A DNA stretch of 64,000 nt, from assembly GCF_014639315.1 (NCBI RefSeq), contig NZ_BMFY01000001.1:186001-250000 (forward strand). Direction: 5' to 3'. The number at the start of each line of letters is the position of its first letter. Positions within the stretch are counted from its first letter, which is position 1. The DNA comes from Sediminivirga luteola. Its GTDB lineage: Bacteria > Actinomycetota > Actinomycetes > Actinomycetales > Brevibacteriaceae. Both the position numbers and the translations under genes were made by a program. The notes beneath the pieces were generated by a model. That model searched no databases and had not been told where the DNA came from. It saw only the letters and a program-made list of their open reading frames with translations. This document shows, piece by piece, positions 7,280 through 25,854 of the stretch.

Positions 7280-8599
7280 ATGACCACCGAAGGAACCGCC
7301 CCCGCGACCGCTCCGGGGCCGCTCACGCAGGACCGCCGGGAACGGATCCTCCAGGCCGTCGACGCCGCCTTCGACGAGCAGATCCGCTTCACGCAGGAGC
7401 TCGTCCGGCATCCCTCCGTGCGGACCCGGGAGGCCGGCGCGCAGGACCTCATGTACGAGGCGATGCAGAGCCGCGGTCTGGAGATGGACCGATGGGAGCT
7501 CGATCCCGAGGAGCTGGCCACGCATCACGGGGCCGGCGTCGTCGAGGTCTCCTACGAGGGGGTCGACACGGTCGTGGGCACCTACTCGCCGGACGTCGAG
7601 CGTGGGCGCTCGCTGATCCTCAACGGGCACATCGACGTCGTCCCGGAGGGGCCCGAGGAGCAGTGGGAGCGCTCGCCCTGGGATGCCGCGATCAAAGACG
7701 GGTGGCTGTACGGCCGCGGCGCCGGGGATATGAAGGCCGGCCTCGCGGCGAATCTGTTCGCCCTCGACGCCCTGCGGGCCGCCGGCCTGAAGCCCGCCGG
7801 CCGCATCCACGTCGAATCCGTCCCCGAGGAGGAGTGCACGGGCAACGGCACGCTGTCCGCCCTGATGCGCGGGTACACCGCCGATGCCGTGCTGATCCCT
7901 GAGCCGGAGGAGGACATGCTGGTCCGCGCCAACGTCGGCGTCATCTGGTTCCGCCTGCGGGTGGCCGGTAATCCGACGCATCCGCGCGAGATGAAGAGCG
8001 GTTTCAACGCCATCGACGCGCTCTACTCGGTGGTGGCCAGGCTCCGGGAACTGGAGGAACGCTGGAACGCGCAGAAGGCCGAGCACCGGTACTTCGAGGA
8101 TCTGGACCATCCGATCAACCTGAACCTCGGCAAGATCAACGGCGGCGACTGGGGGTCCTCGGTGCCGGCCTGGTGCGAGGCGGACCTGCGCATCGCCCTC
8201 TACCCCGGGGTCAGCGCCGACGAGGCCTGGGCCGAGATCACCGCGCTGCTGGCAGGCATCACCCAGGACGCGGCGGGCAACGCCATCCAGGCCGCGGCCA
8301 CCCGGACCGGCTTCTACGCGGAAGGGTACGTGATCGAGGAGGGCTCCGAGGCGGAGGAGGCGCTGCGCCGCGCCCACCGGGCTGCCTTCGACGGCAGGGA
8401 ACTGCAGTCCTTCACCACCCCCGGCTACCTGGACGGACGGATCTTCGTGCAGTACGCCGGTATTCCCGCCCTCACCTACGGCCCCGTCTCCGAGCGGATC
8501 CACGGGTACGACGAGCGGGTCGAGCTGGAGTCGGTGCGCCGCATCACCAAGTCCATCGCCCTGTTCATCGCGGAGTGGTGCGGGGTCGAGGACGCCTGA
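7280..8599 (+). CDS. M20-family metallopeptidase/deacylase (ArgE/DapE type)
   Basis: 439-aa cytoplasmic zinc hydrolase of the ArgE/DapE/ACY1 family. Seen: metal and catalytic motifs NGHIDVVP, GRGAGDMKAG (Asp ligand) and VPEEECTGNG (general-base and ligand glutamates), a dimerisation lid region (about residues 215-340), and the late His ligand in SERIHGYDE. Substrate unknown: N-acyl or N-formyl amino acid derivatives are likely. True ArgE of arginine synthesis is less likely, since no arginine genes are near and the neighbour is a PucR-type regulator, which suggests catabolic use. ATG 7280 follows an AGGAGG ribosome site. A perfect 8-bp GC stem follows the stop. Confidence 0.88.
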   Translation: MTTEGTAPATAPGPLTQDRRERILQAVDAAFDEQIRFTQELVRHPSVRTREAGAQDLMYEAMQSRGLEMDRWELDPEELATHHGAGVVEVSYEGVDTVVGTYSPDVERGRSLILNGHIDVVPEGPEEQWERSPWDAAIKDGWLYGRGAGDMKAGLAANLFALDALRAAGLKPAGRIHVESVPEEECTGNGTLSALMRGYTADAVLIPEPEEDMLVRANVGVIWFRLRVAGNPTHPREMKSGFNAIDALYSVVARLRELEERWNAQKAEHRYFEDLDHPINLNLGKINGGDWGSSVPAWCEADLRIALYPGVSADEAWAEITALLAGITQDAAGNAIQAAATRTGFYAEGYVIEEGSEAEEALRRAHRAAFDGRELQSFTTPGYLDGRIFVQYAGIPALTYGPVSERIHGYDERVELESVRRITKSIALFIAEWCGVEDA

Positions 8600-8618
8600 G
8601 CCGATCGCGCGGTGACCG

Positions 8619-8640
8619 CGCCGTGGACGCGGCCACGGCG
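8619..8640 (+). terminator. Hairpin after the M20 peptidase gene
   Basis: Perfect 8-bp stem CGCCGTGG / CCACGGCG with a 6-base loop, 20 bases after the stop. No T-run follows. Confidence 0.45.
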
Positions 8641-8955
8641 GGAGCCGTACCGCCCGCGTCCACCGCACGGACGCACGCGTGGGTCGTCGAAAAGAGGGGT
8701 GGATCCTGTGAATACGGCGTCCCCTGCACGGGCGCACGCGTGAGCAGCCCGCTGCCGGTTCCACCGCCCACCCATGCCCGCGCTGCTTCGGCGCGCCGTT
8801 GAGGTCCGACAGGTAGGTTCCGGCCCCCGCGCCCGTGCCTGCGGGCCGGTTCCGCCGCCCGTGCAAAGCGAGATCCGGGCGGAAGAGGGAGCGGGGTCTG
8901 GGCCGGCCGCGCGCCGCGGCGCCCGTATCGCATGCTGGGATATTCCGACCGTCTG
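8641..8955. other. Intergenic region before the ilvB leader
   Basis: No supported gene. It holds two near-identical 17-base segments (GCACGGACGCACGCGTG-like) about 50 bases apart and otherwise GC-rich sequence without recognisable sites. Confidence 0.5.
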
Positions 8956-8984
8956 TTGACATGCTTGTAACGGCGTGAAACTCT
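8956..8984 (+). promoter_or_regulatory. Promoter of the ilvBNC leader
   Basis: A consensus -35 box TTGACA (8956-8961) is followed after 17 bases by AACTCT (8979-8984), a weak -10 that ends six bases before the leader-peptide ATG. This geometry predicts a transcript that starts at the ATG. An alternative -10, TCTAAT (8982-8987), would need a 20-base spacer. Confidence 0.6.
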
Positions 8985-8990
8985 AATGGC

Positions 8991-9047
8991 ATGCGTAAGA
9001 ACCTTGTCGTCGTCATTATGCAGCGCGCGGAGACCCCGCTCAGCTGA
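8991..9047 (+). CDS. ilvB leader peptide (attenuator peptide)
   Basis: An 18-codon reading frame encoding MRKNLVVVIMQRAETPLS. The run Leu-Val-Val-Val-Ile consists of exactly the three end products of the pathway, which is the hallmark of a branched-chain attenuator peptide. Ribosome stalling at these codons when charged tRNA is scarce would favour read-through of the terminator that starts 21 bases after the stop. There is no Shine-Dalgarno sequence, in line with a leaderless start. Similar short leader peptides precede ilvB in Corynebacterium glutamicum and Streptomyces. The coding function is inferred from composition and position. Confidence 0.9.
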   Translation: MRKNLVVVIMQRAETPLS

Positions 9048-9067
9048 CGCAGACGACGTCCCGCGCG

Positions 9068-9100
9068 CCCTTTCGAAGAAAACTTCGGAAGGGTTTTTTT
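9068..9100 (+). terminator. ilvB attenuator terminator
   Basis: Stem CCCTTTCGAAG / CTTCGGAAGGG (11 bp, one G-U pair), loop AAAA, followed directly by seven T residues: a textbook rho-independent terminator between the leader peptide and ilvB. The GTCGTCGTC stretch of the leader (about 9005-9013) can pair with GACGACG just before the terminator (about 9052-9058), providing a possible alternative fold. Confidence 0.9.
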
Positions 9101-9142
9101 ATGCCGAGTTGCACAACGAGTCATGGCGGTGACCACGACGAA

Positions 9143-9160
9143 CACCCCGCTCGCGGGGTG
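9143..9160 (+). promoter_or_regulatory. Short perfect hairpin in the ilvB leader
   Basis: CACCCCG / CGGGGTG stem with a CTCG loop, without a T-run. It lies between the attenuator and the second terminator-like hairpin and may take part in RNA refolding. Confidence 0.5.
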
Positions 9161-9177
9161 CTGTGACAGTACGGGAA

Positions 9178-9200
9178 CCGGACCTCAAGTCCGGCTTTTT
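9178..9200 (+). terminator. Second terminator-like hairpin before ilvB
   Basis: Stem CCGGAC / GTCCGG with loop CTCAA, followed by CTTTTT, ending 26 bases before the ilvB ATG. Its position downstream of the classical attenuator suggests a second decision point or a backup terminator. Confidence 0.65.
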
Positions 9201-9226
9201 CGTAAGAGGAACTGTGAGGAGTTTCG

Positions 9227-11184
9227 ATGGCCAGGACGTCAGGCCCGCAGCCTGCTGCCCAGGACAGGGCTGAGCAGTCTGAACTGCCCGGGCAGCCGGC
9301 ACCTGAGGGCGCTGCGGCGAGCCGCCTGCGCGCGGCTCCCTCCCCGGCGAAGATCGCGACCAGGAGCGCCCAGCACGGCGGTCCCGCCCACCTCGGTGCG
9401 GTACGGGACCAGGGGCGGCGCGAACCCGAGATCCTGAGCGGCGCTCAGGCGGTCGTACGCAGTCTCGAACTGCTCGGGGTCGACACCGTCTTCGGCCTTC
9501 CCGGCGGGACCATCCTCCCGACCTACGATCCGCTGATGGACTCGGAGTCCATCCGGCACATCCTGGTCCGGCACGAGCAGGGCGCCGGGCACGCCGCGGA
9601 AGGATACGCCGCGGCCACCGGCCGGGTCGGCGTGTGCATCGCCACCTCGGGTCCCGGTGCGACCAACCTCATCACCGCCATCGCCGATGCCCATATGGAC
9701 TCCGTGCCGCTGGTGGCCATCACCGGTCAGCAGGCCTCCCACCTCCTGGGCACGGATGCCTTCCAGGAAGCGGACATCGTCGGTATGACGATGCCGGTCA
9801 CCAAGCACTCCTTCCTGGTGACCCGCACCGAGGACATCCCGCAGGCCATCGCCCGTGCCTTCCACATCGCCTCCTCCGGCCGTCCCGGCCCGGTCCTGGT
9901 GGACATCACCAAGGACGCGCAGGTGAAGACGTCCGAGTTCCGCTGGCCGGAGAACATCGAGATGCCTGGCTACCGGCCAGTGATGCGCCCGCATTCCAAG
10001 CAGATCCGCGAGGCGGCTCGCCTGATCGCCGGGGCGCGCCGCCCGGTGCTCTACGTGGGCGGCGGCGTGATCCGAGCCGGCGCCCACGAGGAACTCCGCC
10101 GCCTGGCGGAGCTGGCCCGGATCCCGGTGACGACCACGCTGATGGCGCGCGGGGCCTTCCCCGACTCCCATCCGCAGCACCTGGGCATGCCCGGCATGCA
10201 CGGCTCCGTCCCGGCGGTGGTGAGCATCCAGAAGTCCGATCTGCTCATCGCCGTGGGATCCCGCTTCGACGACCGGGTCACCGGGGAGCTCTCCAGCTTC
10301 GCGCCCCGGGCGACGGTCATCCACGCCGATATCGACCCGGCCGAGATCTCCAAGAACCGGCACGCCGATGTGCCCATCGTCGGCGATGCGCGCGAGGTCC
10401 TGGCCCAGCTCTCCGAAGAACTGGAGAACTCCTGGCCGGAGGCGCTCCAGGACCGCCGCGAGGCGTGGTGGGCGCAGCTGGACCAGCTCAAGGAGACCTA
10501 TCCGCTGGGCTACGAGTCCAAGGACGAGGCCTGCGATCCGCAGTACGTCATCCAGCGAATCAGCGCGCTGACCGGCCCGGAGGCGGTGTACACCGCAGGG
10601 GTCGGCCAGCACCAGATGTGGGCCGCGCAGTTCGTCAGCTACGAGCGGCCCCGCTCCTGGCTGAACTCCGGCGGCCTGGGCACCATGGGCTACTCGGTGC
10701 CGGCGGCGATGGGCGCCAAGGTGGGGGAGCCGGACCGCGTGGTGTGGGCCATCGACGGTGACGGCTGCTTCCAGATGACCAACCAGGAGCTGGCCACCTG
10801 CGTGATCAACAACATCCCGATCAAGGTCGCCATCATCAACAACTCATCGCTGGGCATGGTCCGGCAGTGGCAGACGCTGTTCTACAACGGCCGCTACTCC
10901 AACACCGACCTGAACACCGGCCCGGACACCATTCGCGTGCCGGACTTCGTCAAGCTCGCCGAGGCCTACGGCTGCGCCGGGCTGCGCTGCGAGACGAACG
11001 AGGACATCGACGACACCATCCGCAAGGCGCTGGAGATCAACGACCGGCCGGTCGTGGTGGACTTCACCGTGCACCGCGACGCGATGGTGTGGCCGATGGT
11101 CGCCGCGGGCGTGAGCAACGACGAGATCCAGTACGCCCGCGGCGTGCGCCCGCAGTTCGACGGCTTCGAGGAGGAAGAGCAGGG

Positions 11185-11188
<4 letters not shown>
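9227..11188 (+). CDS. ilvB: Acetolactate synthase large (catalytic) subunit
   Basis: TPP- and FAD-dependent enzyme that condenses two pyruvates, or pyruvate with 2-ketobutyrate, in the first common step of valine/leucine and isoleucine synthesis. 653 aa. Domains in order: N-terminal TPP-binding ([20 protein letters not shown] with the catalytic Glu), central domain, C-terminal TPP domain ([28 protein letters not shown]). The first 68 residues are an extra Ala/Pro/Gln-rich extension before the conserved start ([15 protein letters not shown]). ATG 9227 follows a TGAGGAG ribosome site. The stop overlaps ilvN (ATGA). Expression is probably controlled by the leader-peptide attenuator upstream. Confidence 0.97.
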
Positions 11189-12797
<1,609 letters not shown>

Positions 12798-12920
12798 GGC
12801 CCCGGAATCCCGCGCACAGGCTGGGTACCGGGTGGGGGCTGTCAGGCCCCGTGGCGATTTCCTCGCCGCGGGTCCGCCGGTCGCCGCCCGGTATCCGGCT
12901 TGTCCCGTGCGTGGGCGAGC

Positions 12921-12990
12921 GACAGAACCACACGTAAGTGACGAAACGACACCGTAGACGGTGTGGTCCTGTCACTCAGGTGTGGTTTTC
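12921..12990. repeat. Dispersed palindromic element, family 2, copy A
   Basis: Four copies of a motif close to GACAGAACGACAC: direct at 12921-12933 and 12940-12952, inverted at 12961-12973 and 12980-12990. The two arms together form an imperfect hairpin of about 30 bp. It aligns along its whole length with 14677-14749 on the other side of the acetyltransferase gene. No T-run. Possibly a protein-binding array or a small mobile palindrome. Confidence 0.75.
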
Positions 12991-13089
12991 CGTACGTGCG
13001 GAGCTGCCCGGAACCGACCTTGCGAGGGAGCTGCCGGAGGCGTCGCCGCTTGATTCCGTTGCCGGTGCTGGGCACGCGGCCGGCGCCTA

Positions 13090-13095
13090 TAGGCT
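13090..13095 (+). promoter_or_regulatory. -10 hexamer of the Eis-like gene (leaderless geometry)
   Basis: TAGGCT ends six bases before the ATG at 13102 and no ribosome site is visible, so the mRNA probably starts at the initiation codon. Confidence 0.5.
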
Positions 13096-13101
13096 GACCT
13101 C

Positions 13102-14409
13102 ATGCCAGAACCCCAGCACGACTACCGTTTCGAGACCTTTCCCGCCGCGCTGGACCCCGCCAGCACCGAAGGGGACCCGGACGCGCGCACCGCCGCGTTC
13201 GTGCGCGCCGTGCGGGCCGGCTTCTACGACAGCGAACCGGACGCGGAACGACTGCGGAGCATGGCCGCATCCTTCGTCGCCGACCACCAGATGCTCACCG
13301 CGGCCTACCCCGCCAGCGCCCCGGAAGGAGCCCTGAGCGCGGAGGTCCCGGTCGCCACCTTCGTGACCTTTGGCAAGCGCATCAACACCGGCCATGGGCG
13401 GCAGCTCGGCGCGCACCTGATCACCGGCGTCACGGTCCGGCCCACCCATCGGCGCCGCGGCTTGCTGCGCAGGCTGATGGAGACGGACCTGCGCGCCGCG
13501 GCGGCTGCGGGCAAGCCGCTGGCCGCCCTGACCGCCAGCGAGGGAAGCATCTACAGCCGCTTCGGCTTCGGCCCGGTGGAGTGGCAGTCCGAGATCGAGA
13601 TCGACGCCAGTCCCGGCCTGGCGTTCCGCGTCGAACCCAGCGGCCGCGTGGAACTGGCCGAACCGGCCGCGGTCAAGCGCCTGGCGCCGCAGATCTATGC
13701 CCGGTTCCAGGAACGCACGCCCGGCGCGCTCGAACGCAAGCACGCTTACTGGCGGATCATCAGCGGCGAACTCGACCCGGAGAGCGGCAAACCGGATCCG
13801 GCCGTGCGCGCGGCGGTGCACTACGACCCCGAGGGCGCCCCGGACGGCTATGTGACCTACAAGTTCACCGGCTGGGAGCCGCCGACGGTGAAGGTCATCG
13901 ACCTGATCGCCGTCAGCGACGAGGCGTACCGTTCGCTCTGGCAGTTCCTGGGCACGCTCGACCTCGTCCAGGTGATCCGTTACGGCGACGCCGCCCGGGA
14001 CAGCGCCTTGCCCTGGCTGCTGGCCGACGGCCGGCGGATGCGGACCAAGACCAGCGAGGATGGGGTCTGGCTGCGCCTGCTGGATCTTCCGGCGGCATTC
14101 GAGGGGCGAGGCTGGGGGCCGGTGTCAGCGACCCTGCGGCTGCGGGTGAGCGATCGCCTGGGATTCACAGCGGGTACCTGGGAACTCACCGTCGCCGACG
14201 GCACCGCGCGCGTCGAAGCACTCAGCGAGGACGCGCCCGCGGACCTCGCACTGGACACCGGCGACCTCGCTTCCCTCTACCTCGGCGGCGCCGATGCGGC
14301 CCTGCTGGCACGCGCGGGACGCCTGACCGAGCTGGCACCGGGTGCCGCGGTGCGTGCGCGATCGCTGCTGGCCCTGGAACGACCGCCCTACGCCCCGAGC
14401 CACTTCTGA
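13102..14409 (+). CDS. Eis-like GNAT acetyltransferase
   Basis: 435-aa protein of the Eis (enhanced intracellular survival) family: an N-terminal GNAT domain with the acetyl-CoA motif VTVRPTHRRRGLLRRLM (about residues 110-128), a second GNAT-like domain, and a C-terminal SCP2-like domain. It ends in Phe (PYAPSHF). In mycobacterial Eis the C-terminal Phe carboxylate acts in catalysis, and that feature is kept here. Eis enzymes acetylate amines of aminoglycosides, peptides or proteins; the natural substrate here is unknown. The gene stands alone between ilvC and serA and is flanked on both sides by the family 2 palindromic elements. A 16-bp tandem array begins right after its stop codon. Confidence 0.87.
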   Translation: MPEPQHDYRFETFPAALDPASTEGDPDARTAAFVRAVRAGFYDSEPDAERLRSMAASFVADHQMLTAAYPASAPEGALSAEVPVATFVTFGKRINTGHGRQLGAHLITGVTVRPTHRRRGLLRRLMETDLRAAAAAGKPLAALTASEGSIYSRFGFGPVEWQSEIEIDASPGLAFRVEPSGRVELAEPAAVKRLAPQIYARFQERTPGALERKHAYWRIISGELDPESGKPDPAVRAAVHYDPEGAPDGYVTYKFTGWEPPTVKVIDLIAVSDEAYRSLWQFLGTLDLVQVIRYGDAARDSALPWLLADGRRMRTKTSEDGVWLRLLDLPAAFEGRGWGPVSATLRLRVSDRLGFTAGTWELTVADGTARVEALSEDAPADLALDTGDLASLYLGGADAALLARAGRLTELAPGAAVRARSLLALERPPYAPSHF

Positions 14410-14580
14410 GTCAGCTCGGTTTTGAGTAGGCCCGGTTTTGAGGTGGCCCGGTTTTAAGTCGACCCGGTTCTGAGGTGGCCCGGCTTTGAGTCGAGCTGGT
14501 TTTGAGTCGAGCTGGTCTTGAGCTGAGCTGGTTTTGAGTCGAGCTGGTTTTGAGTCGAGCTGGTTTTGAGTCGAGCCGGC
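14410..14580. repeat. 16-bp tandem array, ten units plus a partial one
   Basis: Units such as GTCGAGCTGGTTTTGA repeat head to tail from 14410 to 14569, then decay. The first five units are diverged (GGTGGCCCGGTTTTAA type) and the last five nearly identical. The array starts directly after the acetyltransferase stop. It is AT-richer than its surroundings. Open frames across it encode only the repeat and are not credible genes. Confidence 0.9.
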
Positions 14581-14676
14581 GCCGCCTGGGGCCGGATGCG
14601 CCGCATCGGCGGGACGACATGTGAGTGACAGGACAACGAGTAAGCCGTGACGCGTAAGCGCCAGAACAATACCCCG

Positions 14677-14749
14677 GTGACAGAACGACACTGAGTGACA
14701 GAACGACACCGTCTACGGTGTTGTTCTGTCACTGGGGTGTCGTTTTCTG
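14677..14749. repeat. Dispersed palindromic element, family 2, copy B
   Basis: Direct copies GTGACAGAACGACAC at 14677-14691 and 14695-14709 (identical), then inverted copies at 14718-14732 (one mismatch) and 14737-14749 (two-base insertion). The result is a nested palindrome of about 73 bp. It matches copy A at 12921-12990. Confidence 0.8.
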
Positions 14750-14761
14750 CGACTTCGTCGG

Positions 14762-14945
14762 GCACGGGGCTTGGCCGCACGGGTTCACCGGGCACGGGTT
14801 CGGCCGCGTGAGACCGTGGGTGCCGCGCGTGTCCACCCCGCACGGGTTCGGCCGCGCGAGGCCGTTGGCGCCGCGCGGGTCCACCTCGCACGGGTTCGGC
14901 CGCGCGGTTTCACGGGCACGGGGCTCGGCCGCACGGGCGTCCGGC
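14762..14945. repeat. GC-rich repeat block, 48-bp period
   Basis: The segment GCACGGGTTCGGCCGCG recurs at about 14792, 14840 and 14888 with a 48-base period, and degenerate copies flank it on both sides. The spacer also recurs (GCCGCGCG-GTCCAC). No gene is visible here. Confidence 0.75.
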
Positions 14946-14974
14946 CAGACGGGTGCTCACATCCTGAGCCGGTT

Positions 14975-15003
14975 CGTGAAAGTATTCACAAGCTGGCTAC
15001 CAT
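14975..15003 (+). promoter_or_regulatory. Possible serA promoter with a small palindrome
   Basis: GTGAA-AGTA-TTCAC (14976-14989) is the only AT-rich patch in this region. TACCAT (14998-15003) could serve as -10 with CGTGAA 17 bases upstream. It lies about 140 bases before serA. Confidence 0.35.
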
Positions 15004-15140
15004 GGTCTGCGGGCCGCTCGCACCGGCCCGGGTCCCGGGGCAGGCGCGCGTGCAGCCGCCGCACCGGACCGTGATCACCGCACCAGCACCGCAGACGCCG
15101 GACCGCCCGCGCGGCCCGCACAGCCCAGGAGGCCCCAGCC

Positions 15141-16733
15141 GTGACCAAGCCCGTCGTGCTCATCGCCGAGGAGCTCTCGCCCGCCACAGTCGAGGCGCTC
15201 GGACCCGATTTCGACATCCGGCACGTCGACGGCACCGATCGCGCCGCCCTGCTGGCGGCACTCCCGGGGGCCCACGCGGTCCTGGTCCGCTCCGCCACCC
15301 AGGTCGACGCCGAGGCCATCTCAGCCGGCAGCACGCTGAAGATCATCGCGCGGGCCGGCGTCGGCCTGGACAACGTGGACGTCCCGGCCGCCACCGCCGC
15401 AGGCGTCATGGTGGTCAACGCCCCGACGTCCAACATCATCTCCGCCGCCGAGCTGACCATGGCGCACATTCTCTCCAGCGCGCGGAACCTCGCCTCCGGC
15501 AATGCCGCGCTCAAGGGCGGGCAGTGGAAGCGCAGCGCGTACACCGGCGTCGAGTTGTACGAGAAGACCCTGGGCATCATCGGCCTGGGACGCATCGGCG
15601 CCCTCGTCGCGCAGCGCGCGCAGGGCTTCGGCATGAAGCTGGTCGCCTACGACCCGTACATCTCCGACGCCCGCGCCGCGCAGATGGGCGTCACCTTGAT
15701 GAGCCTGGACGAGCTGCTGGCCGAATCGGACTTCATCACGGTGCACATGCCCAAAACCCCCGAGACCATCGGGCTCCTCGGCGCTGAGGCCTTCGCCAAG
15801 GTCAAGCCGTCCGTGCGCATCGTCAACGTCGCCCGCGGCGGCATCGTCGACGAGGAGGCCCTGGCCGACGCCATCCGCTCCGGTCGCGTCGCGGGAGCCG
15901 GCATCGACGTCTTCGCCACCGAGCCGACCACGAGCTCGCCGCTGTTCGATCTCGACGCCGTCTCCGTCACCCCGCACCTGGGTGCCTCCACGCACGAGGC
16001 GCAGGAGAAAGCGGGAGTCGCCGTGGCGCGTTCGGTCCGGCTGGCGCTCTCGGGGGAGCTGGTGCCCGATGCGGTCAACGTCGCCGGTGGTCAGATCGAC
16101 GCCGACGTCCGGCCCGGCATCCCGCTCGTGGAGCGCCTGGGTCGCGTGGTCACCGCCCTGGCGGACTCCTCGATCACGGCCCTCGACGTGGAGGTACACG
16201 GCGAGATCTCCGAGAAGGACGTCTCGGTCTTCAAGCTCGCCGCCCTCAAGGGCCTGTTCAAGGACGTCGTCTCCGAGCAGGTCTCCTATGTCAACGCGCC
16301 GGTCCTGGCCGAGCAGCGCGGCGTGGACGTGCGGCTGCTGCAGGACGCCCACGCCGACGGGTTCCGCAATGTGATCACCCTGCGGGCCTCCACCGCCAGC
16401 GGTGGCCGGATCTCCGTCTCGGGAACCCTCACCGGGCCCAAGCAGGTGCAGAAGCTCGTCGAGGTCAACGGCTTCGAACTGGAGATCCCGCTGACGGACT
16501 TCCTGCTGGTCTTCCTGTACGAGGATCGTCCCGGCGTGATCGGCCAGCTGGGCCAGTCGCTGGGCCGCAGCAACGTCAACATCGCCGGGATGCAGGTCTC
16601 CCGGACCGATGAGGGCGGTCTGGCGCTGTCCGTGCTCGCGGTGGACTCGCCGGTGCCGGCAGAGGTCGTCGCCGCGGTCGCGGGCGCCATCGACGCCACC
16701 GACGCCTCCTCGGTGGTGCTGACCGAGGACTGA
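15141..16733 (+). CDS. serA: D-3-phosphoglycerate dehydrogenase
   Basis: Catalyses NAD-dependent oxidation of 3-phosphoglycerate, the first step of serine synthesis. 530 aa: long form with substrate/NAD domains, an intervening regulatory domain (about residues 315-450) and a C-terminal ACT domain (LYEDRPGVIGQLGQSLG, residues about 458-530) for serine feedback. Seen: GLGRIGALVAQRAQGFG, catalytic Arg in NVARGGIVDEEAL, Glu in FATEPTT and His in TPHLGASTHEAQ. GTG start at 15141. Serine links to cysE at the window start and to the glycine end of the betaine module. Upstream lies a 730-bp region full of repeats. Confidence 0.96.
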   Translation: MTKPVVLIAEELSPATVEALGPDFDIRHVDGTDRAALLAALPGAHAVLVRSATQVDAEAISAGSTLKIIARAGVGLDNVDVPAATAAGVMVVNAPTSNIISAAELTMAHILSSARNLASGNAALKGGQWKRSAYTGVELYEKTLGIIGLGRIGALVAQRAQGFGMKLVAYDPYISDARAAQMGVTLMSLDELLAESDFITVHMPKTPETIGLLGAEAFAKVKPSVRIVNVARGGIVDEEALADAIRSGRVAGAGIDVFATEPTTSSPLFDLDAVSVTPHLGASTHEAQEKAGVAVARSVRLALSGELVPDAVNVAGGQIDADVRPGIPLVERLGRVVTALADSSITALDVEVHGEISEKDVSVFKLAALKGLFKDVVSEQVSYVNAPVLAEQRGVDVRLLQDAHADGFRNVITLRASTASGGRISVSGTLTGPKQVQKLVEVNGFELEIPLTDFLLVFLYEDRPGVIGQLGQSLGRSNVNIAGMQVSRTDEGGLALSVLAVDSPVPAEVVAAVAGAIDATDASSVVLTED

Positions 16734-20658: not shown

Positions 20659-20752
20659 ACGCACGGGTGAAGGTGCTCAGCGGAGGAGGGCCGCCGGCGA
20701 CTGGGCAAGACCGGCCCACGGTGGACGACGCCCGTAGGTCGGCACCGATGGA

Positions 20753-21460
20753 TTAGCTAACAGTCCCCTGCAGGAGGGTCGTCACGGCCGCGATGTGTTC
20801 GCCCATGAAGTTTGCCGCCGCATCAGGATCGGCTGCTGCGATTGCCTCTGCGATGCGCCGGTGCTGTGTCACCAGGTCATCGCGATCGGGCGTGGCCTCC
20901 ACGACGCGAACGACCCAGACATCCAGAAGGGATTTCACGCTCTCAAGCACCGAAGCCAAGGGTGGATTCTGTGCTGCGTGAGCGATTTCGAGGTGAAAGG
21001 CTGTGTCTGCGCTAGCGAACGCTTCAGGTGTGCTCGCGTTCGCCATCTCGGCAAGGAGCTCTGTCAGCCGGCCCGCTACGTCTGGCCCGCGGCGAGTCGC
21101 CGCCAAACGCGCGAGGGTTACCTCAATGTAGTAGCGAGCCTCGATGAGTTCCTGCGCTTCGCGGGTCCCTAGCAGTAGGCCCCAGGACACCACCTGCGGG
21201 AGAACCTGCGATGCGTTGGCCGCGAGATAAGTGCCATCTCCTTGGCGAATCTCAATGAAGCCCAGAATATCGAGGCACTTCAGAGCTTCCCGGAGCGGGG
21301 ATCGGCCGACACCCAACATCTCGGTGAGGCGACGTTCCGGCGGCAGCCGGTCACCCGGCGCCATGCCGAGGGCGACCGTGCTTTGGACGACGTGCTGCAC
21401 GACGTCCGCCACAGAAGCGCGCCGTGCGTCCCTGATCGGCGGAAAAGCTCGCTCTGTCAT
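20753..21460 (-). CDS. GntR/FadR-type transcriptional regulator
   Basis: 235-aa regulator: N-terminal winged helix (PPERRLTEMLGVGRSPLREA, residues about 40-60) and an all-helical FCD ligand domain with the metal-binding pattern of the family (FHLEIAHAAQ and QHRRIAEAI). FadR-type proteins sense sugar acids, organic acids or amino acids. It is downstream of, and on the same strand as, the four-gene catabolic operon and shares its low GC content, so it is the likely regulator. A 22-bp palindrome at 25500-25521 over the operon promoter is its candidate operator. Ribosome site GGAGGA before ATG 21460. Confidence 0.92.
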   Translation of the reverse strand: MTERAFPPIRDARRASVADVVQHVVQSTVALGMAPGDRLPPERRLTEMLGVGRSPLREALKCLDILGFIEIRQGDGTYLAANASQVLPQVVSWGLLLGTREAQELIEARYYIEVTLARLAATRRGPDVAGRLTELLAEMANASTPEAFASADTAFHLEIAHAAQNPPLASVLESVKSLLDVWVVRVVEATPDRDDLVTQHRRIAEAIAAADPDAAANFMGEHIAAVTTLLQGTVS

Positions 21461-21773
21461 TCGCTCCTCCGTCGTTCTGACATGGTGTTTGATGCCGCTT
21501 GGCTCAGATTACAGGACCGCATCAATGCTGGTCAGCACAAGAACCAGGTGGAGCGAAAACCCTTCGGAACATGATGTCTCGCTGTCTTGACGCGGACTGC
21601 CTAGGCCGTGCCTGCCGCCGTTGTTTGCCCCGGTGAAATAGCGACGTCGCGGTGCGCATGGCAATGGGCGGGTCAACCGGCTACAAGAGCCAGCTGACCC
21701 ACCCATTGAGCGCCTCGTCACTGCGACTCCGTGGAACGAGTGTCTCAGCTACGCACGTTCGGTTATTTCGTTA
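21461..21773. other. 313-bp gap between regulator and aldolase genes
   Basis: No supported gene. It should hold the regulator's promoter (a TGTAAT -10-like box near 21509 on the minus strand) and the 3-prime end of the aldolase transcript. Short open frames here lack family features. Confidence 0.5.
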
Positions 21774-22553
21774 TCAGAACCAGCGGTGCCCTGTAGTCTC
21801 CTTCCCGAGTGCTTCGGCCATGGTCTTAATCTGCCGGATCATCAGCCCGATGTCCGATCCGAGAGATACCATTCCGAAGCCTTGGTCACGGCGCGTGATC
21901 GCTTCCTCGGTACTGCGGGCGACGATTCCTGAGGAAATTCCACGGTCGGTTGCGCGACGAAGGATGTCTAAGTTCATCTCCGCGACCCCTGGCCCTTCCC
22001 ACTCCCCGACAGCGCCGCGACTTGCTGACATATCGCCTGGGCCCAAGAAAACGGTCTCGAGCTTGTCAGCGGACAGGATCTCATCGAGGTTCTCATATGC
22101 GCGCTGTGTCTCGATCATCGGGATCAGCAGTAGCTCGTCGTTCGCGTTAGTGACGTATTGTTCTAGATCCAGGCCCCACTTCACACTGCGCTCGCCTCCG
22201 ATGCCGCGGCGCCCCAGAGGCGGATAATAGAAGTGTTCATGCACAGCATGAAGCTCCTCGGCCGAGTCAATAAGGGGAACAATCGCGCCGTGCGCACCTA
22301 CGTCAAGAGCCCGCTTGATCGGTTCGAGCTCCTGTGAGGGAGGCCGCACGAGTACTGTGAGGTTGGTGCCTCGTGCAGCGCTCAGATGCGTCTGGATATC
22401 GCGATAGTCAAGGTAACCGTGCTCCATATCGATGCAGATCCAGTCGATCCCGAGTAGACCGGCGACTTCGGTAACCGCCGAAGCTTCTGAGGTGACCCAG
22501 AGTCCGAACGCAGTCTCGTTTGCAGCCAGTTTGTTACGCAGTGCCTCGTTCAC
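21774..22553 (-). CDS. HpcH/HpaI-family aldolase
   Basis: 259-aa class II (metal-dependent) aldolase that cleaves 4-hydroxy-2-keto acids to pyruvate (or a pyruvate analogue) and an aldehyde. Seen: the catalytic His in MEHGYLDYRD, Arg in VLVRPPSQE, metal ligands Glu (MIETQRAYEN) and Asp (FLGPGDMSAS), and GAHGAIVPLIDSAEEL. The start is GTG 22553, preceded by AAAGGAG and overlapping the permease stop (GTGA). A frame extending further upstream runs into the permease gene and is unlikely. Natural substrate unknown; the KdgT-type permease next to it suggests a sugar-acid-derived keto-deoxy compound. GC is about 55-58%. Confidence 0.92.
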   Translation of the reverse strand: MNEALRNKLAANETAFGLWVTSEASAVTEVAGLLGIDWICIDMEHGYLDYRDIQTHLSAARGTNLTVLVRPPSQELEPIKRALDVGAHGAIVPLIDSAEELHAVHEHFYYPPLGRRGIGGERSVKWGLDLEQYVTNANDELLLIPMIETQRAYENLDEILSADKLETVFLGPGDMSASRGAVGEWEGPGVAEMNLDILRRATDRGISSGIVARSTEEAITRRDQGFGMVSLGSDIGLMIRQIKTMAEALGKETTGHRWF

Positions 22554-23650
22554 GTGTTGCTTCTCCTTTGGGGATCCGGCGTCCGCCGGGGTTCGTTCAG
22601 TTCTGTCTTTGGGCTGTGGTGAAAGTTCCACTCGTCTTCCGCTTCAGGCGAAACGCCTCGTCGCAATTGCCATCGGGAGACCAAGGCAACCAGGAATGGG
22701 ACGAGCAGCGCGGTGGTGATTGTTGCTGCGGCTACCTGCGCAGTAGCAACCGACTGGATTGCTTCGTACGATGGGTCGACCAGGGCAACTGCAGCTGGTG
22801 TCGCGATCGCGTTCCCGGCTGTAGTTGACTCGGCTGCTCCGGCGATCAGGTTTCGCGCTCTAGGTGGGCGCCGTCGAATGAGGTGCAGAAGATACAAGAG
22901 CGCCATGGAGCCGGCTCCGACCACGGTGAGCGTAATAAGGCCCAGTAGGATCCCCTGTAGTCCTGCTTGCCCGAGCGTGCTGAAGTCGATGCCACGCCCG
23001 ACCACGAAACCCAGGAACGGAATAAGCAGTGCCTCGCCGGGACGCAGGAATGTTCGTGCTGTGTTACTCGCGTTGCCGATGACAAAGCCAGCTGCGAGCG
23101 GGAGAAGTAGCCCGACGAGCATCTCAAGAGGAAAGTCCACTAGTCCCGCGGCGCCAAGCGCGATCAGGGTGATGAAAGGACCGTCGTTGATCGACAGGAT
23201 TGACACCGATCCGCGGTCACTCAAGTTGCCGAACTGTTTGGTTAGGGCGACGAACAGGGCGGAATTCGAGTTGGTGATCGCGGCGATCAGTGCGAGAGGA
23301 GTCAGGCCAATCAGCGAACCGTCCGGAGTGAGGAATGCGACCCCAAGCCCGATGGCCACTCCGATCCCGACCTTGGCCGTGAAGACCGTCACCCCTTTCT
23401 CGATGGTCACGAATCCTTGACGGAAGTCGATCTGAGCTCCCATGCAGAAGAAGAACAGGCCGAGGAGCGCTCCGGTGCCGTCTCGGAAGAGATCAGAGGT
23501 GAAGCTTCCGACGTCGAGTACTTGTGGGAAGAACGTATTGACGACTGCGCCAAGGAACAACGGGTAGATCATGAGCGCGCCGGGAACGGAGCCGGCTATG
23601 CGTGTTGCCCGTTTCCACCCGGGTTTTGGCGGTTGTCTGGTCGTCGACAT
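22550..23650 (-). CDS. KdgT-type 2-keto-3-deoxygluconate permease
   Basis: 366-aa transporter with about ten hydrophobic segments. The N-terminal third has the KdgT family pattern: PGALMIYPLFLGAVVNTFFP, then DVGSFTSDLF, then FFFCMGAQIDFRQG. Known members import 2-keto-3-deoxygluconate or related aldonic/keto-deoxy acids by H+ symport. ATG 23650 has an AAGGAGG ribosome site; its stop overlaps the aldolase GTG start. It defines the likely class of substrate of the operon: a sugar acid, not an aromatic. An isolated KdgT can carry other compounds, so the exact substrate is open. Confidence 0.88.
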   Translation of the reverse strand: MSTTRQPPKPGWKRATRIAGSVPGALMIYPLFLGAVVNTFFPQVLDVGSFTSDLFRDGTGALLGLFFFCMGAQIDFRQGFVTIEKGVTVFTAKVGIGVAIGLGVAFLTPDGSLIGLTPLALIAAITNSNSALFVALTKQFGNLSDRGSVSILSINDGPFITLIALGAAGLVDFPLEMLVGLLLPLAAGFVIGNASNTARTFLRPGEALLIPFLGFVVGRGIDFSTLGQAGLQGILLGLITLTVVGAGSMALLYLLHLIRRRPPRARNLIAGAAESTTAGNAIATPAAVALVDPSYEAIQSVATAQVAAATITTALLVPFLVALVSRWQLRRGVSPEAEDEWNFHHSPKTELNEPRRTPDPQRRSNT

Positions 23651-23664
23651 TGACGGCCTCCTTA

Positions 23665-25029
23665 TCAGGCGGAGCCTCCAGTTGTAAGACGTGCCCTGGC
23701 TTGTTCCTCGAGTTCACGGCGCAGGCTCACAGCAGCGCTGTCAGCAGGCGGAGTCACGTCGTCCCAAGTGACGACGGAACCGGCCGCCACTGGGCGTGTG
23801 ACAGTCAAGCCGTGTCCGAGCCCCATAGGAAGGGCACGGAACTGGAGGGAACGTTCTGCTGTGGTCAGTACGCCTCGGACTGTGTAGCCGCCTTCGCCGT
23901 CCAGGACCTCGCCGACGGCGAGGTCCTTCTTGGCAACGGCGACGACATCGGCCCGATAAGAGGCTGGCGCTCCGGTGGCCTCATGCCGCAGAGTCGCAGA
24001 TGCGATGCTCACGCCGAGCTCCATGCCGATCATGTGGTACGGGCGGAAGAGCGATGCATACTGACCGCTGGGGTCGGTGAGTACTCCGTACTCGGTGAAG
24101 CAGGTGCGGGCGTATTCCGTCTGAGCGCGGAATGTTACATAGACACCCCAGCGCAAATCGCGCGCAACTGGCGTGCCGTCACGGTGCAGGCTCGACACCA
24201 CTTCCACGGTGCCGCTCTGTTCGAGTACACCGCCATCTGCGGAGGGGATGAGGGTGTGCGGGAGATCGTCGACGTCGACCGGCGGGAACGTGAGCCCGTT
24301 TGTCGGAGCGACGAGGCCAGCGGCGTTTGCGACCGCCGCCATTTCAATCGCCGATTTCGTCCCGTCAAGGAATGAGTTAAACATCTGCGGATTCATTCCG
24401 CCACGGGCGGCTTGCTCGGGAGTAAGGCCGTAATGGTCCCATACGGTGTCGGGGGTCGAGGTTTCATAGGCGGGGAGATACTTAGTCCCCTTCCCTGCCG
24501 CGACAATTTCATAGCCCACCGTGCGACACCAGTCGACCAACTCCGCAATGAGAGCCGGCTGATCTCCGTACGCGAGCGTGTACACCACACCTGCCGCGTC
24601 GGCCTTTTCTTTCAGGACAGGTCCCACCATGCAGTCGGCTTCCACGTTGACCATGACTACGTGCTTGCCATTCTCGATTGCCGCAAGCGCGTGGCTGGAG
24701 CCGGCGAGAGGGTTGCCGGTTGCCTCCACGATGACCTCTACGTCCGGGTCGGTGATGAGTGCCGTCGAGTCGTCGATGACTGCTGTGCGCCCAGTTCTCT
24801 TTGCTTCTTTCAGGGGGAGCCGGCCGTATCGATCAGCTGACCATCCGGTGCGCGCGAGTGACTCTTCCGCGCGCTCGATCGCGAGATCTGCGAGGCCCAC
24901 TATGTGAAGCTGTGGCTGGTTAACAGCCTGAGTGAGGAACATTGAGGCGAACTTGCCGGCGCCGATCACACCGACACGGATAGGCCCCGACGTGTCGAAG
25001 CGACGCTGCATCAATGCGTGGAGGTTCAT
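23665..25029 (-). CDS. NAD(P)-dependent dehydrogenase with C-terminal SAF domain
   Basis: 454-aa cytoplasmic oxidoreductase. N-terminal Rossmann fold (RVGVIGAGKFASMFLTQAV), a homoserine-dehydrogenase-like central part with VEATGNP and KHVVMVNVEAD, and a C-terminal SAF domain (VAKKDLAVGEVLDGEGGY). Proteins of this build occur in sugar-acid and polyol catabolic clusters; several remain uncharacterised. ATG 25029 overlaps the NIPSNAP gene stop (ATGA), and only 14 bases separate it from the permease gene. It probably performs the oxidation or reduction step before aldol cleavage. The frame extends upstream to 25140, but the overlap and the family start favour 25029. Confidence 0.85.
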   Translation of the reverse strand: MNLHALMQRRFDTSGPIRVGVIGAGKFASMFLTQAVNQPQLHIVGLADLAIERAEESLARTGWSADRYGRLPLKEAKRTGRTAVIDDSTALITDPDVEVIVEATGNPLAGSSHALAAIENGKHVVMVNVEADCMVGPVLKEKADAAGVVYTLAYGDQPALIAELVDWCRTVGYEIVAAGKGTKYLPAYETSTPDTVWDHYGLTPEQAARGGMNPQMFNSFLDGTKSAIEMAAVANAAGLVAPTNGLTFPPVDVDDLPHTLIPSADGGVLEQSGTVEVVSSLHRDGTPVARDLRWGVYVTFRAQTEYARTCFTEYGVLTDPSGQYASLFRPYHMIGMELGVSIASATLRHEATGAPASYRADVVAVAKKDLAVGEVLDGEGGYTVRGVLTTAERSLQFRALPMGLGHGLTVTRPVAAGSVVTWDDVTPPADSAAVSLRRELEEQARARLTTGGSA

Positions 25030-25409
25030 CGTGAACCTCCACCGAGGGGGTTGAAGATTGTTCCCTCTTCGTCGTCGGCACGAACCGGCAGCTGACGGAT
25101 CGGTGAGAACGAGGTGGGATACATGATGCTGTTGTCCCATCGAATGATCATCGGCCGCACGATCTCAATGCAGGCCTGCCATTCGTGATCTGCTGCGAGT
25201 GCTGCTCTTCTCTGACGTCTGTCTTCGAGATCGCTGTACGCCCAGAAGTGGCGTACTTGGTTCTGCGTCCCGAACTCCGTGGTGAAGTAACCGAGGAATC
25301 CTCCAAGTATGCGCTTCTGCGCCGGTAGTCCAAGGCGTTCATAGTTGTCCAGGAAATCCTTCAGTGGTATTCCGGGTGAGATGTCGTACGTGCGTTGTTC
25401 AACCAGCAT
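25026..25409 (-). CDS. NIPSNAP-family protein
   Basis: 127-aa protein with the NIPSNAP fold (dimeric alpha-beta barrel): it opens with VEQRTYDISPG, contains LGGFLGYFTTEFG and NQVRHFWAY, and a RRQRRAALAADHEW helix. NIPSNAP proteins have no general assigned reaction. Here it is the first gene of a four-gene operon (ATGA overlap with the dehydrogenase), so an isomerase or lyase-like role in the same pathway is plausible. I chose ATG 25409, seven bases after AAGGAGG; ATG 25415 is two codons upstream but too close to that site. GC is clearly lower than in the flanking housekeeping genes. Confidence 0.8.
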   Translation of the reverse strand: MLVEQRTYDISPGIPLKDFLDNYERLGLPAQKRILGGFLGYFTTEFGTQNQVRHFWAYSDLEDRRQRRAALAADHEWQACIEIVRPMIIRWDNSIMYPTSFSPIRQLPVRADDEEGTIFNPLGGGSR

Positions 25410-25479
25410 GTGCATTCCTCCTTGAATGACATCGCGCGTGGTTCCAGGCTGCGAGCCGTAGAGCGGAACCCTTGATGCG

Positions 25480-25521
25480 ACGGTAGCCAACATTCCTCGA
25501 AACATCAACCGGTCGATGTTT
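25480..25521 (-). promoter_or_regulatory. Promoter and palindromic operator of the NIPSNAP operon
   Basis: On the minus strand, TTGATG (25508-25503) and TACCGT (25485-25480) are separated by exactly 17 bases, a good promoter about 70 bases upstream of the first gene. A perfect palindrome, AAACATC-N8-GATGTTT (25500-25521), covers the -35 box. It is a candidate site for the FadR-type regulator at 20.8 kb. Confidence 0.65.
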
Positions 25522-25854
25522 GCGGTTCGAGCGGCGCGGGACAGAGATCTCCCGGAGAAGAGCACAGCCGCCCGTCGTGCGGGTGCGCCCTCGATGTGGC
25601 CGGAATGGTCACGTTGCCCGTGAGGTCACGATCAACGCGAGACCATTTCGGGCACATCCAGCAACCGGCCGGCCGGGCAAGTCTGCCCCACGACCGACGA
25701 TGCCTGGCTCGGCTGCGCAGGCGCGGCACGATTGATCTGCGCCGGACGCTCCTCGGCCGCCCGGCGCCGAGTGGTCGGGTCGGTTAGGATTGAGCGGATC
25801 GCGCCGCCGATGCCGGGGGCCGACACACCGAAGCCGAAGCCTTGAAGGAGCGCC
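25522..25854. other. Intergenic region between the NIPSNAP operon and thyX
   Basis: No gene is supported. A TAGGAT box (about 25786-25791) may be the -10 of thyX, giving a leader of roughly 55 bases. GC content climbs back to the genome average across this stretch, marking the edge of the island. Confidence 0.45.

Follow-up and report, generated by a model that had tools for sequence, protein, structure and literature searches.

In a 64,000-nt stretch of Sediminivirga luteola DNA (NZ_BMFY01000001.1, positions 186,001-250,000, forward strand; hereafter the window), the minus strand carries five genes between an MFS transporter gene of the plus strand (end 20658) and thyX (start 25855). They constitute a module acquired horizontally from another bacterium. 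In transcription order they encode a NIPSNAP protein, a DRL/SAF oxidoreductase, a KdgT-type permease, an HpaI-type aldolase and a GntR-FCD regulator. Judging from its sequence, the oxidoreductase, taken for a “SAF dehydrogenase” in an earlier annotation made from the letters alone (the sequence-only reading), is a DXR-II-like oxidoreductase of the DRL/DLO2 type. This identity is the main new point, and it turns the operon into a handle on DLO2, an enzyme family without assigned function. We propose, with a probability of about 45%, that the module degrades a small hydroxy or sugar acid (C4-C6, possibly branched) by the steps set out below.

The literature searched, in which subscription journals are thinly covered, yielded neither a characterised pathway with this gene set, as the sequence-only reading had supposed, nor a function for DLO2 or NIPSNAP. 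The “undescribed system” of that reading is thus a new combination of known families, but not a new kind of system. In this compact operon, which has a likely operator and recurs in the same gene order in a second organism, DLO2 and NIPSNAP are encoded together with a transporter and an aldolase; the bacterial NIPSNAP crystal structures that we found (PDB 5kak, 5k9f, 2ap6 and 1vqy) carry no assigned function.

Relation of the oxidoreductase to DXR-II and DLO2

The oxidoreductase matches the Brucella DXR-II structures (PDB 3upl/3upy) at 6e-72. The superfamily comprises DXR-II, which makes 2-C-methyl-D-erythritol 4-phosphate (MEP), and the uncharacterised families DLO1 and DLO2; the DXR-II criteria include Thr229 and His250 (Brucella numbering), whereas DLO2 has Pro, Ser or Ala at position 229 (PMC3847144). 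DLO2 was set up there from sequence alone, is described as functionally uncharacterised and includes a Cupriavidus necator N-1 strain; the sections consulted describe no association of it with NIPSNAP, KdgT or HpaI (PMC3847144).

In a multiple alignment, Ser replaces Thr229 and Thr replaces His250 in the window enzyme, so that both DXR-II residues are missing and position 229 is of the DLO2 type; 80 of 83 close relatives also have Ser there. The fold by sequence, the anchor lysines Lys191 and Lys193, and Arg320 and Tyr322 are nevertheless common to the window enzyme and Brucella DXR-II. With DLO2 the enzyme shares the domain layout, Ser229 and Lys191/193, and it is ~53% identical to the plasmid homologue of C. 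necator N-1. In the phylogenetic tree, which contains no verified DLO1 reference, it is sister to a Paeniglutamicibacter protein (support 97/99). It clusters with 37 DLO2-like rows, among them the homologue of Cupriavidus N-1, and Brucella DXR-II falls outside this cluster (85/97). Outside the actinobacterial clade plus one planctomycete protein, the closest group consists of the proteins of loci L142, L107 and L143.

All 97 of 97 DLO2-like rows have Asp48, compared to Ala at this position in Brucella DXR-II. This Rossmann position usually determines the cofactor choice, and the conserved Asp suggests that the window enzyme uses NAD and hence runs in the oxidative direction. As the only characterised branch of the superfamily is a reductoisomerase, the enzyme might also catalyze a rearrangement. 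The oxidation or reduction assigned to it earlier need not be the whole reaction.

Layout, origin and distribution of the module

The directly read gene coordinates bear out the coupling reported in the sequence-only reading: the NIPSNAP and dehydrogenase genes overlap in ATGA, 14 nt separate the dehydrogenase and KdgT genes, and the KdgT and HpaI genes overlap in GTGA. The ATG at 25409 sets the 5' limit of the operon. The five families named there were recovered by a Pfam search of the window proteins (Table 1), including the FadR-type regulator, in which both the GntR helix-turn-helix and FCD domains were detected and whose gene follows after 313 nt.

Table 1. Genes and candidate control elements of the module, in window coordinates
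Feature	Position	Strand	Evidence or remark
NIPSNAP-family small dimeric alpha/beta-barrel protein, operon gene 1	25026-25409	-	PF07978 2.8e-27
DXR-II-like oxidoreductase (DRL/DLO2 type, predicted): Rossmann + DRL catalytic + SAF	23665-25029	-	DRL_cat PF21135 4.6e-58, SAF PF08666 1.9e-8
KdgT-family permease	22550-23650	-	PF03812 3.6e-97
HpaI-family class II pyruvate aldolase, GTG start	21774-22553	-	HpcH_HpaI PF03328 2.4e-32
FadR-type (GntR-FCD) regulator	20753-21460	-	FCD PF07729 3.8e-25, GntR PF00392 3.8e-14
Operator-like palindrome TCAACCGGTCGA (TCGACCGGTTGA on operon strand)	25505-25516	.	identical 12-mer in Paeniglutamicibacter locus L023
Hairpin with 21-bp stem, aldolase-regulator gap	21662-21708	-	-43 kcal/mol for folded 70 nt

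The composition of the island is foreign to its surroundings. Its GC content is 0.605, compared to 0.703 in the remaining window, where 498 stretches of equal length (4657 bp) have a minimum of 0.680. The single genes have a GC of 0.554-0.634, against a mean of 0.704 in 36 flanking genes (standard deviation 0.025, minimum 0.644), a GC at third codon positions of 0.62-0.70 against 0.87, and a codon-adaptation score of 0.39-0.46 against 0.70 (flank minimum 0.54). All five genes fall under the flank minimum in the three measures. The sequence-only reading was right in placing the GC below the ~70% around, but its 55-58% is too low for an island that averages ~60.5%.

Moreover, the island is absent from five relatives in which the MFS and thyX genes were found in one fetched region. 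The interval gene is lplA in the one relative scanned with Pfam; the other four have an lplA-like gene there, two of them together with additional genes. The 64-kb window has no lplA-like gene, and the island occupies the interval (20659-25854) instead. The foreign GC and codon usage together with the island-free relatives bear out the suspected gain as a horizontal transfer. Direct repeats of at least 14 nt were not found at the island edges; no search was aimed at transposase genes.

A scan of the genome collection with the DRL alignment, of which the best 80 relatives were kept, revealed all five genes in identical order in Paeniglutamicibacter quisquiliarum (L023), with identities of 71% (NIPSNAP), 67% (dehydrogenase), 67% (KdgT), 77% (HpaI) and 50% (regulator). 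The module therefore has at least two complete copies and is no singleton. The flanking genes in L023, an SDR gene and a class II fructose-bisphosphate-aldolase-family gene upstream and a transthyretin-family gene downstream, are unlike the window neighbours, which indicates that the unit comprises just these five genes. The L023 module has a GC of 0.600, close to the 0.61-0.63 of its surroundings, making a donor of Paeniglutamicibacter-like composition plausible. The module looks rare: no further complete copy was found with HpaI (E<1e-60) among 396 genomes sampled from the order, with KdgT (E<1e-60) among 397 sampled from the phylum, or in plasmids searched with single genes and the whole island. 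In 397 genomes from the phylum, the NIPSNAP search (E<1e-10) found four relatives; none adjoins DRL or KdgT genes, and one adjoins an HpaI fragment (28%).

The 12-nt palindrome is a likely operator: it lies ~100 nt upstream of the NIPSNAP gene in the window and, as the same 12-mer (at 8536), ~80 nt upstream in L023, with no second occurrence in either. An exact copy in another locus (L133) was dismissed, as it is located within a DeoR coding sequence. The hairpin between the aldolase and regulator genes is a candidate terminator, attenuator or regulatory site. Since a hairpin of different sequence occupies the corresponding position in L023, the regulator gene is probably a transcription unit of its own.

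Proposed pathway and competing explanations

The permease and the aldolase carry family names rather than substrate assignments. The permease belongs to the broader PF03812 family, but scores 193.8 bits against the KdgT equivalog TIGR00793 (cut-off 453.8). Likewise, the aldolase scores 155, 140 and 130 bits against the HpaI, GarL and YfaU NCBIfam equivalogs, with cut-offs of 369, 407 and 441. It shares with these enzymes the family and the active-site motifs: EHG, VRPP, IET and GPGD align with the YfaU, HpaI and GarL structures (2vws, 7et8 and 1dxe), and their conserved His, Arg, Glu and Asp are presumably catalytic. Among the nearest relatives of the permease, those from two genomes within the phylum (54-58%) share an operon with DUF1537 and PdxA, and those on plasmids lie in a benzoate/catechol cluster or in an unrelated context. 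Given these contexts and the missed cut-offs, 2-keto-3-deoxygluconate is not the predicted cargo. Of the sugar-acid uptake and HpaI cleavage claimed in the sequence-only reading, a likely acid and a supported aldol step are retained. On a plasmid of Rhizobium sp. WL3 (L105, 4977-6014), the gene of a KdgT-family permease is flanked by catA and benD, which suggests that the family also carries aromatic acids or muconate.

The relatives of the oxidoreductase sit in acid-catabolic, namely sugar-acid, operons, which supports the catabolic role ascribed earlier to the module. Those of Microbacteriaceae (61-66% identical) form part of DRL-GntR-MFS-DUF1537 operons; in some of these, an ABM gene overlaps the DUF1537 kinase gene or closely follows it. 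On plasmids of rhizobial and rhodobacteral origin, an ABM gene directly follows DRL, and then come genes for a 3-hydroxyisobutyrate-dehydrogenase-like enzyme and for a TRAP transporter. A class II aldolase is also among the neighbours of DRL relatives. Four-carbon acid-sugar (tetronate) catabolism employs a DUF1537 kinase with PdxA or a class II aldolase. DUF1537 genes accompany relatives of the permease as well as of the dehydrogenase, whereas the window module lacks the kinase, PdxA and the class II aldolase and contains an HpaI-type aldolase instead.

The AlphaFold model of the NIPSNAP protein (predicted local distance difference test 85) retrieved with Foldseek first the NIPSNAP crystal structures, and then LsrG (2gff) and the ABM-type YgiN (1r6y). 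PF07978 and the dimeric alpha/beta-barrel fold both assign it to the NIPSNAP class, the dimer itself being predicted. In the degradation of autoinducer-2, the small dimeric-barrel LsrG works with the aldolase-fold enzyme LsrF, which offers an analogy. However, LsrG, the top non-NIPSNAP fold match, belongs to another family, acts in a pathway with a phosphorylated substrate and is 13% identical in the fold alignment. NIPSNAP relatives were found in varied catabolic clusters. The NIPSNAP-assisted step of the sequence-only reading can be recast accordingly: NIPSNAP may take the role held elsewhere by ABM, another small dimeric-barrel protein comparably placed in several relatives' operons.

The predicted route begins with import of the acid by KdgT. 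The DRL/DLO2 enzyme would oxidise it with NAD+, possibly coupled to a ketol-type isomerisation, with the acid group held in a pocket equivalent to the phosphate-binding pocket of DXR-II. NIPSNAP, with its LsrG fold, would then convert the oxidation product, an unstable oxo compound, by isomerisation to a 4-hydroxy-2-oxo acid, which HpaI would cleave into a short aldehyde and pyruvate (or hydroxypyruvate). Until the substrate is present, the FadR-type protein would repress the operon at 25505-25516. The gene layout, the families, the foreign composition, the conserved gene order and palindrome, the DLO2-type residues and the lack of the MEP pathway are direct observations; the substrate, the direction and order of the reactions and the part of NIPSNAP are predictions from sequence. 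As the module has neither a kinase nor a dehydratase, a substrate one oxidation, with or without an isomerisation, away from a 4-hydroxy-2-oxo acid is favoured. A more specific version, in which the DXR-II-like enzyme, running oxidatively as an oxidoisomerase, turns a branched sugar acid into a linear one and NIPSNAP, as the isomerase, prepares the aldol cleavage, seems rather unlikely; if true, it would give a first role to DLO2 and bacterial NIPSNAP in a previously undescribed catabolic route.

Several points weigh against the proposed route. The activities of the module enzymes are themselves predictions. Without the kinase or dehydratase of most relatives' operons, the acid must need just one or two steps, or enzymes encoded elsewhere. 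Permease relatives occur in aromatic-acid clusters too. NIPSNAP adjoins a DRL gene at two loci only, ABM matches occur at 12 of 94 DRL loci and are directly adjacent at four (raw counts), and the Paeniglutamicibacter copy is the sole other complete module found.

The most credible alternative, though a doubtful one, is that the DRL enzyme acts simply as a 2-hydroxyacid dehydrogenase with NAD, that HpaI cleaves its product and that NIPSNAP is an accessory for stability or side-product repair. A 2,4-dihydroxy acid would yield the 4-hydroxy-2-oxo acid directly, and needing only oxidation and cleavage it fits the missing kinase and dehydratase; nearly all other DRL loci are also without NIPSNAP. 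Yet the NIPSNAP gene opens the operon, shows translational coupling and is retained at 71% identity in Paeniglutamicibacter, and ABM proteins with the NIPSNAP fold recur in DRL operons.

It is unlikely that cleavage comes first, with KdgT importing a 2-oxo-3-deoxy acid, HpaI splitting it into pyruvate and an aldehyde, and the DRL enzyme oxidising or reducing the aldehyde. Such acids are the classical substrates of both families, and the DRL Rossmann domain is weakly similar to homoserine dehydrogenase. However, the permease and aldolase scores lie far under the KdgT, HpaI, GarL and YfaU cut-offs, and some operons that contain DRL relatives have no HpaI-type aldolase. Still less probable is that the module takes up an aromatic-derived acid or another non-sugar acid. 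The Rhizobium permease, the function of HpaI proteins in aromatic meta-cleavage and one NIPSNAP relative beside CoA-transferase and HMG-CoA-lyase-like genes point that way, but the module has no ring-modifying or ring-cleaving gene and DRL relatives keep company with sugar-acid genes.

Isoprenoid context and further DRL genes

That the SAF protein is a functional DXR-II supplying MEP for isoprenoids has a negligible chance: despite its superfamily match and two anchor lysines, this function was rejected on the active-site residues and the genome content. No match to DXR-I or IspF was found in the window genome (present in 27/29 and 26/29 genomes searched, respectively), which has two HMG-CoA reductase matches; the mevalonate pathway seems to have taken the place of the MEP pathway there. 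The operon and genome contexts thus exclude MEP synthesis as the role of the window enzyme. Its presence in a genome without the MEP pathway argues that DXR-II-related enzymes can have catabolic roles.

The same genome encodes two further DRL proteins beyond the window. One (L016, G000:C1:282759-284069), 37-39% identical, lies in an operon of the order sorbitol-type phosphotransferase system (PTS) EIIBC-EIIA-GutM-DRL-E1alpha-E1beta-E2. A polyol would enter as its phosphate, DRL would form a deoxyketose phosphate, and E1/E2 would cleave this to acyl-CoA and triose phosphate; as the genome has no MEP pathway, the operon reads like a reversed start of it. Homologues of this DRL protein (49-63%) are flanked by PTS genes in 8/8 other genomes found, with E1 genes within the fetched 4.3 kb in 3/8. 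The other paralogue (L017, G000:C3:11064-12356) is divergent and adjoins genes for a class II aldolase, a GntP permease and a DeoR-like regulator.

Another KdgT-DRL pairing occurs in the same family (L018 of genome G035, 8428-15307), where a low-GC operon contains a 53% KdgT relative and a divergent DRL, in addition to a galactarate/altronate dehydratase-family protein, an FAA hydrolase and a regulator-like gene. The DRL-GntR-MFS group of Microbacteriaceae and Arthrobacter (L031, L028, L038, L024 and L027), of which no description was found in the literature searched, mostly includes the DUF1537 kinase and in some cases ABM.

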